From Halobacteriales archaeon QH_7_65_31 (lineage in GTDB: Archaea > Halobacteriota > Halobacteria > Halobacteriales > Haloarculaceae), in assembly GCA_003021785.1 (NCBI GenBank), contig PXQU01000016.1, positions 293,101 through 357,100 of the forward strand: 64,000 bases of DNA, given 5' to 3'. Of this stretch, positions 36,523 through 39,745 are shown one piece after another; position 1 is the first letter of the stretch; every line of letters starts with the position of its first letter. The position numbers were made by a program, and so were the translations under genes. The notes beneath the pieces are model-generated. The model was not told where the DNA came from. It worked only from the letters and a program-made list of their open reading frames with translations, and did no database searches.

Positions 36523-36837
36523 TCAGTGGAGTCGCTCGGCGTACGCCTCGTCCCAGCGGTCCGCCTCCGGCGTATCACCGTCGAGTTCGATGCGCCAGCC
36601 GTCAAGCGTCTCGGGATCGCGCAGCGTCGCCGTGAGCGTCTCCCGAACGTCCCGCACGTCGACGCCGTAGAAGTCATCCGGCACGTCCTGTAGGTACTCA
36701 AGCGCCGTTTCGAACAGCGAGCACATTCCGTCGTCGTCCTCGAAATCGACGTGTTTGTACACGCCGGCGGCGACCTGCACCATCCCGTGGAGGAACTTCG
36801 ATTCGGTCGAGCCGCGTCCGTAGTTGTACCACTTGTC
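36523..36837 (-). pseudogene. host DUF309 gene, 3' part (split by integrated element)
   Basis: Codes for the C-terminal half of a DUF309 protein from [18 protein letters not shown] onward to the natural stop. Compared with the intact copy at 38639-39133 it begins in the middle of the domain, just after the point corresponding to DCFE. The open frame runs 18 nt into the element to a false ATG at 36855. The missing 5' part is found at 39166-39335 on the same strand, so one gene was split by 2.3 kb of inserted DNA. Confidence 0.8.
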
Positions 36838-36892
36838 CGTAAAAGTTGATTGCACAGGTGTAAATAAATCCTAAAATATACGATAAGCGGAC

Positions 36893-38218
36893 ATGATAGT
36901 GAATCCGAGGAGTGCCACCACTATGGCGAAATCAATGCGTGAGCGATACGAAACCGGCCGTGAGCGAATCAAGAACGACCCGGACGTGAGCGACACAGAG
37001 GAGAAGCTAATCCTCGAATTTTTGCACGCCAACGACTCTCGCCGGGATACCCACCAGATGCCGGACGGCAAGGTCAAGAGTGACGGGACGCTTGCACGCT
37101 ACGCCCGCGGCGTTGGCCGGGTAGCGAGGGATTTAGAACCGGACCTCACCGAGGCTACGACCTACGACATTAATTCGCTCATGGATGACTACCTCAATGG
37201 CAACGTGGAGGGTATCAAAGACGAGGGCTTGGCGAATAGCTCCGTGCGGAACTTTCAGGGGCCAATGCGTCGGTTCTACCTCTATCACGACGATTTGGGA
37301 GTTGACCGTGAGGAGATTCACTTTGCGGATCAAGACGAGTCTCCGGTTGACGAACGAGATATGTTCTCCAAGGAGGACGTGCAAGCACTCCGCGAGGAGG
37401 CCAAACGGCGCGGCTCTCGGGACGCCTGCCTCGTGGACTTGCTCCTCTACACCGGCCAGCGCCGAAGTGCGATTCTCAACCTCCGGCTCAAAGACGTAAA
37501 ACCCGAGGAGGACATTTTTCACCTCAACGAGGACGACGGAGACCTCAAGGGAGCGAATGGAAAACGCCCGCTCTTAGGAGCCAACGAGGCCGTTCGGGAT
37601 TGGAAACGCCAACACCCGACGCAAGATTCTGCGGACTACCTCATTACCCACAAGCACGACCAGAGCAACCGTGACGGCGTGCGACCGGGAGACAAGTTAT
37701 CTCCGAGCACGGTGTACCGCCAACTCAAGCGGATCGGTAAGGCGGCCGGCGTGGACAAGCCGGTGAATGCTCACAACTTCCGGCACTACTTCGTAACGGT
37801 GTGCAAGCGAGACTACGGCATGGACAACGACACGATAAAGCACCTCATCGGACACGAGCCAGGTAGTAAGGTCATGGAGCGGACCTATGCTCACCTCACC
37901 GACGAGGACCACATTGAGGCCGCAGAGGTAGCCCAAGGACTCCGTGACCCCGACGAGGAAAGCCCGCTCACTCCTCCAGTGTGTGACCGTTGCGGAGAGC
38001 CGTTAGAGAGCGATTGGAAATCGTGTCCGTATTGCGGGTTTGTGTACGCGCCGGACGCGCAAGAGGCTCAAGAGCAAGTTAATGATGACGTGAACAAAGA
38101 GTATCGACAATCCGGCCCCGAAAATACCGAGACGCACGAGACCGTGGACGCGATCGAGCGGGCGCTTGATGACCCCGAGGTGAAACAAGCACTTCTTGAA
38201 CGGTTGTCCGAGGAGTAG
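36893..38218 (+). CDS. int: tyrosine recombinase / integrase with C-terminal zinc ribbon
   Basis: A 441-residue site-specific recombinase. The N-terminal SAM-like core-binding domain is followed by the catalytic domain, with Arg in LLLYTGQRRSAILNL near residue 190, His-x-x-Arg in AHNFRHYFVT near 300, and nucleophile Tyr in MERTYAHLTD near 332. After it comes an extra zinc ribbon CDRCGEPLESDWKSCPYCG and a short acidic helix. The AT-rich upstream region carries AAATAAATC and AAAATATACG promoter-like stretches. ATG 36923 is an alternative start. Confidence 0.88.
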   Translation: MIVNPRSATTMAKSMRERYETGRERIKNDPDVSDTEEKLILEFLHANDSRRDTHQMPDGKVKSDGTLARYARGVGRVARDLEPDLTEATTYDINSLMDDYLNGNVEGIKDEGLANSSVRNFQGPMRRFYLYHDDLGVDREEIHFADQDESPVDERDMFSKEDVQALREEAKRRGSRDACLVDLLLYTGQRRSAILNLRLKDVKPEEDIFHLNEDDGDLKGANGKRPLLGANEAVRDWKRQHPTQDSADYLITHKHDQSNRDGVRPGDKLSPSTVYRQLKRIGKAAGVDKPVNAHNFRHYFVTVCKRDYGMDNDTIKHLIGHEPGSKVMERTYAHLTDEDHIEAAEVAQGLRDPDEESPLTPPVCDRCGEPLESDWKSCPYCGFVYAPDAQEAQEQVNDDVNKEYRQSGPENTETHETVDAIERALDDPEVKQALLERLSEE

Positions 38219-38369
38219 GTGGTCTCGCGGTTGTCATAGCACTCCTCTCTTTGTTGACCGCTCGTTAGATTTGCGAGACTCCGCGCTAAGTTAGTGCACG
38301 CTTCTCGGAGCAAGGTTCGGGGCCGGTAATTGAGACGCCCGGCCCTCGGAGGGTCACGCCCGGAAACTC

Positions 38370-38594
38370 ATGCGTCTCGCCGGCAAGGGGTCCGGGTTCA
38401 CCTACGGTAAGCACCACGGCAAGGAGCAACTCCGCGTGGACCTCATGGACGTAACGGACCCCGACGTGCAGGACGCGCTCACCGAGAGCGAGACCGCGGA
38501 CAGGGACGACGAGACCGACATCGAGGATCCGGCCACCGAGACAGAGAGCTATCCGAGGTGCGAGCACCTACTCGTCACGCCGGTCCAAGAGTAG
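38370..38594 (+). CDS. 74-aa ORF of the integrated element
   Basis: Reads MRLAGKGSGFTYGKHHGKEQ and continues with an acidic region (TESETADRDDETDIEDPATE). No family is recognised. It lies between the integrase and the DUF309 copy on the same strand. The 150 bp before it (38219-38369) hold no other visible gene. Coding status rests on halophile-like acidic composition only. Confidence 0.4.
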   Translation: MRLAGKGSGFTYGKHHGKEQLRVDLMDVTDPDVQDALTESETADRDDETDIEDPATETESYPRCEHLLVTPVQE

Positions 38595-38638
38595 GGTTAT
38601 CCGACGCGGTTACGTGAGTGGGGAGAAAAGGTAGCCAC

Positions 38639-39133
38639 ATGAACGAGCACACCCGAGACGACTCCGTAGGTCCGCCGACCTCCGGCACTCCGACCGGGTG
38701 GGACGCCGGCCGTGGACCGTCAAACGGGTGGGAGCACGGGACGCTCCGCCGAGCTGTGATTCACGGCGTGCGGCTCTACAACGCCGGGGAGTTTCACGAG
38801 GCGCACGATTGTTTTGAATCGGAGTGGTATAATTACGGGAACGGAACCACGGAGAGCGCGTTTCTCCACGGAATGGTGCAAGCGGCGGCAGGAGCGTACA
38901 AGCAGTTTGACTTTGAGGATAGTGACGGTATGCGTTCCCTGTTTGAAACCGCTCTCCAATACCTCCACGACGTGCCTCGGGACTACTACGGCGTGAACCT
39001 ACTCGACGTACGGACCACGCTCACCAACGCGCTCAATGATCCGACGGTGCTCCACGGGTGGGAGATTGAGCTTGACGGAGAGCACCCGGTGGCGCGAGGG
39101 GTGGACCGTGAGTATGCCGAGGCGCTTGAGTGA
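38639..39133 (+). CDS. DUF309 protein, intact element-borne copy
   Basis: A 164-residue full-length DUF309 protein. The signature helix pair [18 protein letters not shown] is complete, followed by [20 protein letters not shown]309 is a helical family of unknown function. The gene is the last in the element and ends 32 nt before the right junction. It is collinear in protein sequence with both halves of the disrupted host gene, but in the opposite orientation, so it can act as a replacement. ATG 38639 gives MNEHTRDDS, matching the host start VDEHTTDPD. Confidence 0.85.
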
Positions 39134-39165
39134 CCGTTAGATCTATATACACGTCTGAAACCGAT

Positions 39166-39335
39166 CTCGAAACAGTCGTGGGACTCGTGGTACTGCGCGG
39201 TATTGAACAGCCGAATCCCGTGGACCGTCGCTCGCCGGAGCGTGTCGTGTTCCCACCGACCCGTCTCGGGGAGAAACCCGTCGGCTGTCCGCGTGTCGGC
39301 GGCGGCACGTCCGGGTCAGTGGTGTGCTCGTCCAC
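39166..39335 (-). pseudogene. host DUF309 gene, 5' part, with frameshift
   Basis: From GTG 39335 the minus strand encodes VDEHTTDPDVPPPTRGQPTGF. It then shifts frame at a C-run (about 39270) and continues as RWEHDTLRRATVHGIRLFN and YHESHDCFE up to the element boundary at 39166. These align to [21 protein letters not shown] and [19 protein letters not shown] of the intact copy. So the host gene is broken twice, by insertion and by a 1-nt change. Confidence 0.75.
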
Positions 39336-39417: not shown

Positions 39418-39501
39418 GCGGGGGTAGCAAAGCCTGGAAAACGCGGCGGACTCAAGTTCCGCTCCTGTAGAGGTCCGGGGGTTCAAATCCCCTCCCCCGC
39501 A
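39418..39501 (+). tRNA. tRNA-Leu (anticodon CAA)
   Basis: Acceptor stem GCGGGGG (39418-39424) pairs with CCCCCGC (39494-39500), with discriminator A. The anticodon stem GCGGA/TCCGC encloses loop CTCAAGT, giving anticodon CAA (reads UUG). The variable arm TCCTGTAGAGG is long, as in class II leucine tRNAs, and the T arm is GGGGGTTCAAATCCCC. CCA is not encoded. It lies 82 nt upstream, in plus-strand sense, of the start of the split DUF309 remnant. Confidence 0.92.
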
Positions 39502-39552
39502 CTGGCGACAGTGCTGGAAGACGACTCTCGGAGTGGTCTTCCCCCGCATCAT
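39473..39552 (+). repeat. 80-bp direct repeat, copy 1 (tRNA-Leu 3' end plus trailer)
   Basis: Matches 39666-39745 over 80 bp with one mismatch (G at 39530 versus A at 39723). It covers the T arm, acceptor 3' strand and trailer hairpin. Duplicated tRNA 3' ends are the classic footprint of integration at a tRNA gene, though only 113 bp now separate the copies. Confidence 0.8.
39516..39542 (+). terminator. hairpin after tRNA-Leu
   Basis: GGAAGAC (39516-39522) pairs with GTCTTCC (39536-39542), with an inner ACTC/GAGT stem. It lies 15 nt after the mature tRNA end and is copied behind the tRNA fragment at 39709-39735. A tRNA trailer terminator or processing structure is likely. Confidence 0.45.
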
Positions 39553-39575: not shown

Positions 39576-39694
39576 CTGGAAAGCGCGGCGGACGCAAGTT
39601 CCGCTCCTGTAGAGTCCTCGTGAGCGAAGCGAACGAGGGCACGTGAGACGGCACGTCTCACGGAGGTCCGGGGGTTCAAATCCCCTCCCCCGCA
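39576..39694 (+). pseudogene. partial, interrupted tRNA-Leu copy
   Basis: Resembles tRNA-Leu from the D-loop (CTGGAAAGCGCGGCGGA) to the 3' end but lacks the 5' acceptor strand and most of the D arm. U33 is replaced by G in the anticodon loop (CGCAAGT). A 51-nt insert (39615-39665), built of two hairpins, splits the variable arm: CCTCG/CGAGG with GTGAGCGAAGCGAAC inside, and CGTGAGAC/GTCTCACG. It cannot fold as a functional tRNA. Confidence 0.75.
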
Positions 39695-39745
39695 CTGGCG
39701 ACAGTGCTGGAAGACGACTCTCAGAGTGGTCTTCCCCCGCATCAT
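39666..39745 (+). repeat. 80-bp direct repeat, copy 2
   Basis: Second copy of the tRNA-Leu 3' end and trailer. Its last bases overlap the stop codon of the toxin gene (TGA on the minus strand at 39742-39744). Confidence 0.8.

Follow-up and report, generated by a model that had tools for sequence, protein, structure and literature searches.

The element described here is, with a probability that we put at roughly 0.73, a site-specific island of haloarchaea that disrupts the core gene DUF309 and rescues its host with a recoded full-length copy of this gene. It lies in a stretch of 64,000 nucleotides from a haloarchaeal contig, which is called the window throughout. Compared with a preliminary description of the locus, the new observations are that the element is one member of a family, that the copies of this family are recoded at the att core, and that remnants and scars in other genomes retain the copy without the integrase.

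In the window, the minus strand carries the host DUF309 gene, which is interrupted directly 3' of its DCFE codons. Its two parts, located at positions 39166-39335 and 36523-36837, read as a single DUF309 protein consisting of an N-half that ends with ...YHESHDCFE and a C-half that begins with DKWYNYG.... Thus, the preliminary description had joined the two minus-strand parts correctly at DCFE and DKWYN, and it was also right in placing a tyrosine integrase and an oppositely oriented full-length DUF309 gene between them. The C-half, which extends from DKWYN to the stop codon, matches residues 52-163 of this copy with 63% in a tblastn comparison. It is followed by a decayed att core, TTTACG in host orientation (36838-36843, minus strand), which was recognized by comparing the junctions of seven elements, and by an end repeat, GGTGTAAATAAATCC (36857-36871, plus strand), which was read by eye from the junction sequences. 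The integrase (36923-38218, plus strand; PF00589, E 3.2e-21) comprises 431 aa from a conserved MAKSMRER start and was aligned with four intact relatives; its frame is open from 36893, and its C-terminus contains a zinc-ribbon-like stretch. An SSV-type (suicidal) split of the integrase gene was not seen in this uninterrupted frame. Next comes a small ORF of 74 aa without a family match (38370-38594, plus strand), the end of which is also present in the remnants G113 and G394 (see below). A weak relative of this ORF (43% over 56 aa) is located near another integrase in L108 (14812-14961). A promoter-like block, CGACGCGGTTA (38602-38612, plus strand), precedes the DUF309 copy at position -37. The copy itself (38639-39133, plus strand; PF03745, E 3.3e-15) encodes 164 aa and contains the recoded att-core codons GAT TGT TTT GAA for residues 57-60, DCFE (38807-38818, plus strand). 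At the junction with the host N-half, the att core reads TTCGAG (39166-39171, minus strand; junction comparison). The element of about 2.3 kb has no gene content other than int, the 74-aa ORF, and DUF309, and virion or transfer genes were not found in it; in its larger relatives, selected ORFs were scanned. The host N-half lacks one base compared with the uninterrupted genes of G002 and G004 from the same genus, which bears out the frameshift reported earlier. A tRNA-Leu(CAA) gene beside the host gene (39418-39502, plus strand) lies outside the element and serves as a landmark. The copy is the only intact DUF309 orthologue found in the window genome; a second DUF309 protein encoded on another contig is distant (35% identity).

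Including the one in the window, seven integrase-bearing elements were found in three haloarchaeal families, and their integrases are 79-83% identical. Among 392 genomes of the order, six encode an integrase with at least 79% identity (window included), the next best match having 50%. One more element, that of G431, emerged when the search was extended to 170, 26, and 146 genomes from the three families (overlapping with the 392 genomes), in which the best outsider had 53% identity. All seven integrases are located at the same point of the same DUF309 gene, each together with a full DUF309 copy, and all seven elements share a layout in which the host 3' half adjoins the integrase start and the full copy adjoins the host 5' half. 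With its recurrence in six other genomes, the arrangement in the window exceeds chance. The distance between the host halves is about 2.0 kb in G372 and G140, 2.3 kb in the window, 6.3 kb in G431, 18.6 kb in G275, and 28.5 kb in G383; the element ends of G159 lie on two contigs, so that no distance is available. In six elements, the copy is oriented opposite to the host gene (type A), and in G159 it has the same direction (type B). The copy is the only intact DUF309 orthologue in six of the seven element genomes, namely those that were searched whole. In a scan with two peptide patterns, G372 corresponded to Halorubrum californiense DSM 19288 and G159 to Halobacterium sp. KA-4.

Uninterrupted DUF309 genes are present in five integrase-less genomes of the same genus as the window genome (G001-G005) and in G310, which belongs to the genus of G275, G383, and G431. 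Both these empty sites and the further elements combining int with DUF309 had been envisaged in the preliminary description. Having a recombinase, a shared core at a fixed target, and empty sites in relatives, the element probably represents an integrative element of the tyrosine-recombinase type. A split DUF309 gene was absent from twelve regions around more distant integrases (39-49% identity), and two of these regions contained a distant, unsplit DUF309 paralogue. Such paralogues (41-42%) lie about 1 and 6 kb from the integrases of G309 (L105, 7786-8055) and G118 (L103, 17023-17307), respectively. No relative was found in viral contigs, and phages and plasmids yielded only matches below 60% identity, the best ones having 39.5% and 37.5%.

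Alignment of the junctions (...CACGACTGYTTCGAG followed by the element, and the element followed by TTCGAGGACGAGTGG...) revealed the att core TTCGAG, in most cases CTTCGAG, within the Cys-Phe-Glu codons of the HDCFE motif. The target site is therefore in the middle of the gene, at codons 57-60 of 164. TTCGAG is readable at one junction at least in six of the seven integrase-bearing elements and in five of six remnants (11/13), and recombination presumably takes place at this sequence. Its presence in all 11 readable insertions does not imply that only hosts with GAG were entered, because the integrated core may derive from either parent. The core beside the C-half reads TTCGAG in G140, G431, and G159; an intact core on both sides is present in G159 only, and most other cores have decayed on one side, as has the one at the window C-half. 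An imperfect inverted repeat is present at the element ends, 13 bases away from the core; it reads GTGTAAACAAATC in G159, was identified by eye, and is possibly an arm site of the integrase. At the opposite end, the inverted counterpart of GGTGTAAATAAATCC is easily recognized in G159 and weak in the window.

The copies are recoded precisely at this core. Recoding was compared among 77 full genes, including nine type A copies (six with integrase and three remnants) and four type B copies. All nine type A copies encode DCFE with GAT TGT TTT/TTC GAA, five of them with TTT. The third-base A/T fraction of the nine copies is 0.89 in the core versus 0.27 elsewhere, which is the top value among all four-codon stretches. 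For the six integrase-bearing type A copies, the values are 0.92 and 0.29, placing the core first of 161 stretches, whereas the same stretch has rank 36 of 161 in 63 host genes (A/T 0.17). In 100000 random draws of four columns outside the core, the core value of type A was never matched. Likewise, invariant two-fold codon columns that always end in A/T in the nine copies account for three of four columns in the core and for none of 30 outside. The four type B copies, three of which read TGT TTT GAA TCA, are only weakly recoded: 6383 of 100000 random sets were as extreme, and 14681 of 100000 for G159 alone. As the copies are related, the recoding may trace to few events. It is a common property of tyrosine recombinases that they are blocked by a mismatch in the overlap, and the recoding suggests that the copy would be immune to the integrase of its own element. 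This reading is tempered by the RAVI codons of residues 38-41, which form the second most A/T-ending stretch in the six integrase-bearing type A copies and come close to the core (0.88).

The DUF309 gene is present in 373 of the 392 genomes of the order, and 19 had no match at the threshold used. It has a structurally solved relative, 2IJQ (E 2.8e-75). In the accessible parts of the literature naming the family, no function for DUF309 was found, nor were knock-out data found in the accessible parts of the literature searched. The copies are under purifying selection, with dN/dS values of 0.06-0.20 in ten pairs. Relaxed selection on the C-half in the window did not emerge cleanly, as ω was 0.18-0.25 versus 0.08 for G002-G004, but 0.40-0.46 in pairs with G003. 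All eight inspected type A copies have a block at about -37 that reads CGACGCGRTTA, or CGGTGCGATTA in the group of G275, G383, and G431. This block resembles one upstream of several host DUF309 genes, and the copy thus apparently comes with a promoter of its own.

Phylogenetic trees place the host C-half of the window with the same-genus genes of G002 and G004 (support 0.944 and 0.918 in two trees; 86% identity). The copy groups with the remnants G394 and G113 and with G350 and G246, all of which belong to other genera (0.929-0.973). A single clade of all type A copies, which had appeared in the first tree (0.898), was lost after addition of 11 Haloferacaceae-like (f4) host genes. In the enlarged tree, full-length type A copies form two groups, one containing the window, G394, and G113 with G350 and G246 and the other containing the f4 elements with the host gene of G352. 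A tree of the N-terminal parts unites the nine type A copies and this host gene in a single clade (0.776). The discord between these trees would be explained if 3' parts had been exchanged or captured repeatedly. Type B copies lie apart in two trees, and a tree of the 60 N-terminal residues does not group them. As a vertically inherited gene, the host half is clearly placed in the window, well placed in G140 and G431, and placed by best match only in G383; for G275, G372, and G159, a tree without any f12 host gene gave no resolution.

Six genomes contain the copy together with one or both host remnants and without a close integrase. G113, G394, and G221 are remnants of type A, and G233, G351, and G012 are remnants of type B. 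In G351, a TnpB-like gene (named by eye) lies between the copy and the host remnant in the place of the integrase (L152, 9292-10686). In G233, an N-half precedes a gene that shares 90-98% identity with the type B remnant of G351 over its first 60 codons. From codon 75 onward, the identity of this gene is 82-88% with host genes from the genus of G233 and 64-68% with type B copies. By this pattern of identities, the gene of G233 is a chimera: a crossover between the copy and the host 3' half eliminated the element, and the resulting gene retains the recoded core. The genomes G350 and G246 have inverted scars: the copy alone is left, and its orientation is reversed with respect to the adjacent desuccinylase-like gene and tRNA-Leu. 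A host half next to the copy was not found in either genome. G028 and G352, in which the gene is also turned, may be further scars. Thus, remnants and scars document that the copy persists while the rest of the element decays. G188 was dropped from the remnants, as it has the core TTCGAG with the element end absent beside it, and may be a different recombination product; it was counted in the type B set of the first recoding analysis and left out of later counts.

The core codons could also have been inherited from a donor DUF309 gene and reflect the higher A/T content of element genes rather than immunity. Host genes read TTCGAG in 49, TTCGAA in 21, and TTTGAA in 4 of 74 cases, so that TTCGAG is missing in 25 and GAA alone is not unusual; one of the four genes with TTTGAA, that of G089, even has the whole GAT TGT TTT GAA string. 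The N-terminal clade of the nine type A copies with the host gene of G352 points in the same direction, since these genes may share an ancestor. This explanation is nevertheless rather doubtful, because third-base A/T is 0.19-0.42 across the element as opposed to 0.89-0.92 in the core, and because three of the four core codons are identical in the nine copies despite dS values of up to about 2.

An alternative role for DUF309 would be that of cargo serving the element, for instance as a regulator or counter-defence factor, after capture from neighbouring host sequence. Mobile islands often pick up neighbouring genes, and DUF309 has no known function. However, the copy has stayed intact where integrase and cargo were lost, no second intact orthologue accompanies it in the six element genomes searched, it carries a host-like promoter block, and its recoding falls exactly on the att core, all of which makes a role as cargo improbable. 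For an ordinary local duplication of DUF309 beside an unrelated integrase, which the preliminary description had named as the competing origin, proximity alone can be cited. It is ruled out for the window by the trees, in which the C-half groups with its own genus and the copy with remnants of other genera, and the recurrence in seven genomes also speaks against it; we assign it next to no weight.

Disruption and rescue of DUF309 by the element would proceed as follows. The tyrosine integrase would recombine the TTCGAG of the element with the same core in the HDCFE codons; that integration at this site cuts DUF309 in two is evident from the anatomy of the locus. As this site is located in mid-gene, the element cannot repair the gene by supplying an end. 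Instead, it carries the whole DUF309 gene, including a promoter-like block, in its terminal part next to the host 5' half. Judging from its intactness, the selection acting on it, and the promoter-like block, the copy probably supplies the DUF309 protein, the loss of which would presumably harm the host. With the same core residues encoded by other codons, the copy should be spared by the integrase. The host halves and att sites would no longer be used and would decay, as is seen in the window, and the copy would become the only working gene, kept after integrase loss as in the remnants. Type B elements would be removable by homologous recombination, as observed for G233, and type A elements would not. 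This difference may explain the predominance of type A among the integrase-bearing elements (six of seven).

We lean slightly towards regarding this system as a natural break-and-rescue element, in which a core gene is destroyed by the integrase and provided anew by the element as a full version recoded at the recognition core. If so, carriers would be immune to further insertion and dependent on the gene of the element. Subsequently, the copy would become the permanent gene of the lineage, a xenologous replacement, and the rest would be removed by homologous recombination or decay. Such a strategy apparently persists even when the element is lost.

Replacement of one end of the invaded protein gene is known from islands such as e14 and phage 21 in icd. 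An archaeal case is the genomic island NitEve-E2, which is reported to replace the end of a Zn-finger gene (PMC6563490). The DUF309 element resembles such islands in having a tyrosine integrase that acts in a coding gene, the function of which is preserved by element DNA. These islands supply one end, whereas the DUF309 element has a mid-gene site and supplies a whole gene that is predicted to be separately transcribed, with the host halves remaining split. One section of a review on archaeal tyrosine recombinases mentions coding genes as targets and contains no whole-gene replacement (PMC8371274). The tRNA-targeting archaeal integrases treated in parts of the same review (PMC8371274) are likewise tyrosine recombinases whose target is preserved after integration; unlike these, the DUF309 element targets a protein gene and does not restore it via the att core. 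In active lysogeny, a host gene is also interrupted by an integrated prophage, and its function is reported to return by regulated excision (PMC6814406), in contrast to the permanent second gene of the DUF309 element. Engineered cleave-and-rescue and home-and-rescue drives break a needed gene and supply a recoded resistant copy. The DUF309 element shares the disruption of the target and a copy recoded at the attacked site, the resistance of which is predicted here. It differs from the engineered drives in being natural, in using integrase insertion instead of a nuclease, and in spreading horizontally, and a drive by it would be hypothetical. A precedent for a whole recoded replacement gene was not found in the literature searched, which was covered in excerpts and lies mostly outside subscription journals.

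The usual view of islands in protein genes is that function is preserved through restoration of one end of the gene. The DUF309 family would represent a second solution, whole-gene replacement with self-immunity via synonymous recoding, which resembles the design of engineered gene drives. These elements would allow a direct test of whether codon choice is selected at the DNA level. They would also provide a mechanism by which a core gene is repeatedly replaced in different archaeal families, and a starting point for understanding why nearly all haloarchaea examined retain the uncharacterised DUF309.

The larger elements carry defence-like genes, according to scans of selected ORFs (10 against PADLOC, 20 against Pfam, and 10 against PHROGs, two of the last ten being window proteins). 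Two helicases of G275, one of the SNF2 type resembling DrmD (E 1.6e-76) and the other resembling PbeA (2.3e-42), are accompanied by a PD-(D/E)XK-like protein. The cargo of G383 consists of an AAA protein with a McrC protein (PF10117, 3.7e-52), PD-(D/E)XK proteins, and an ADP-ribosylglycohydrolase, and that of G159 of a UvrD-type helicase and a second, short integrase. Two integrases with about 50% identity are associated with the replacement of gene ends: in G431, a GST-like gene receives a new 3' end (L106, 8638-9171 and 17357-18427), and in G138, a radical-SAM (wyosine-type) gene receives a new 5' end (L098, 8798-9088 and 18181-18999). The element-borne ends of both genes are divergent. Directly behind the intact tRNA-Leu(CAA) gene of the window, a partial second copy of this gene is present together with its downstream stretch (39576-39745). 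This duplicate consists of 83 nt with 99% identity and 39 nt with 95% identity, separated by an insert, and is perhaps the trace of another integration.
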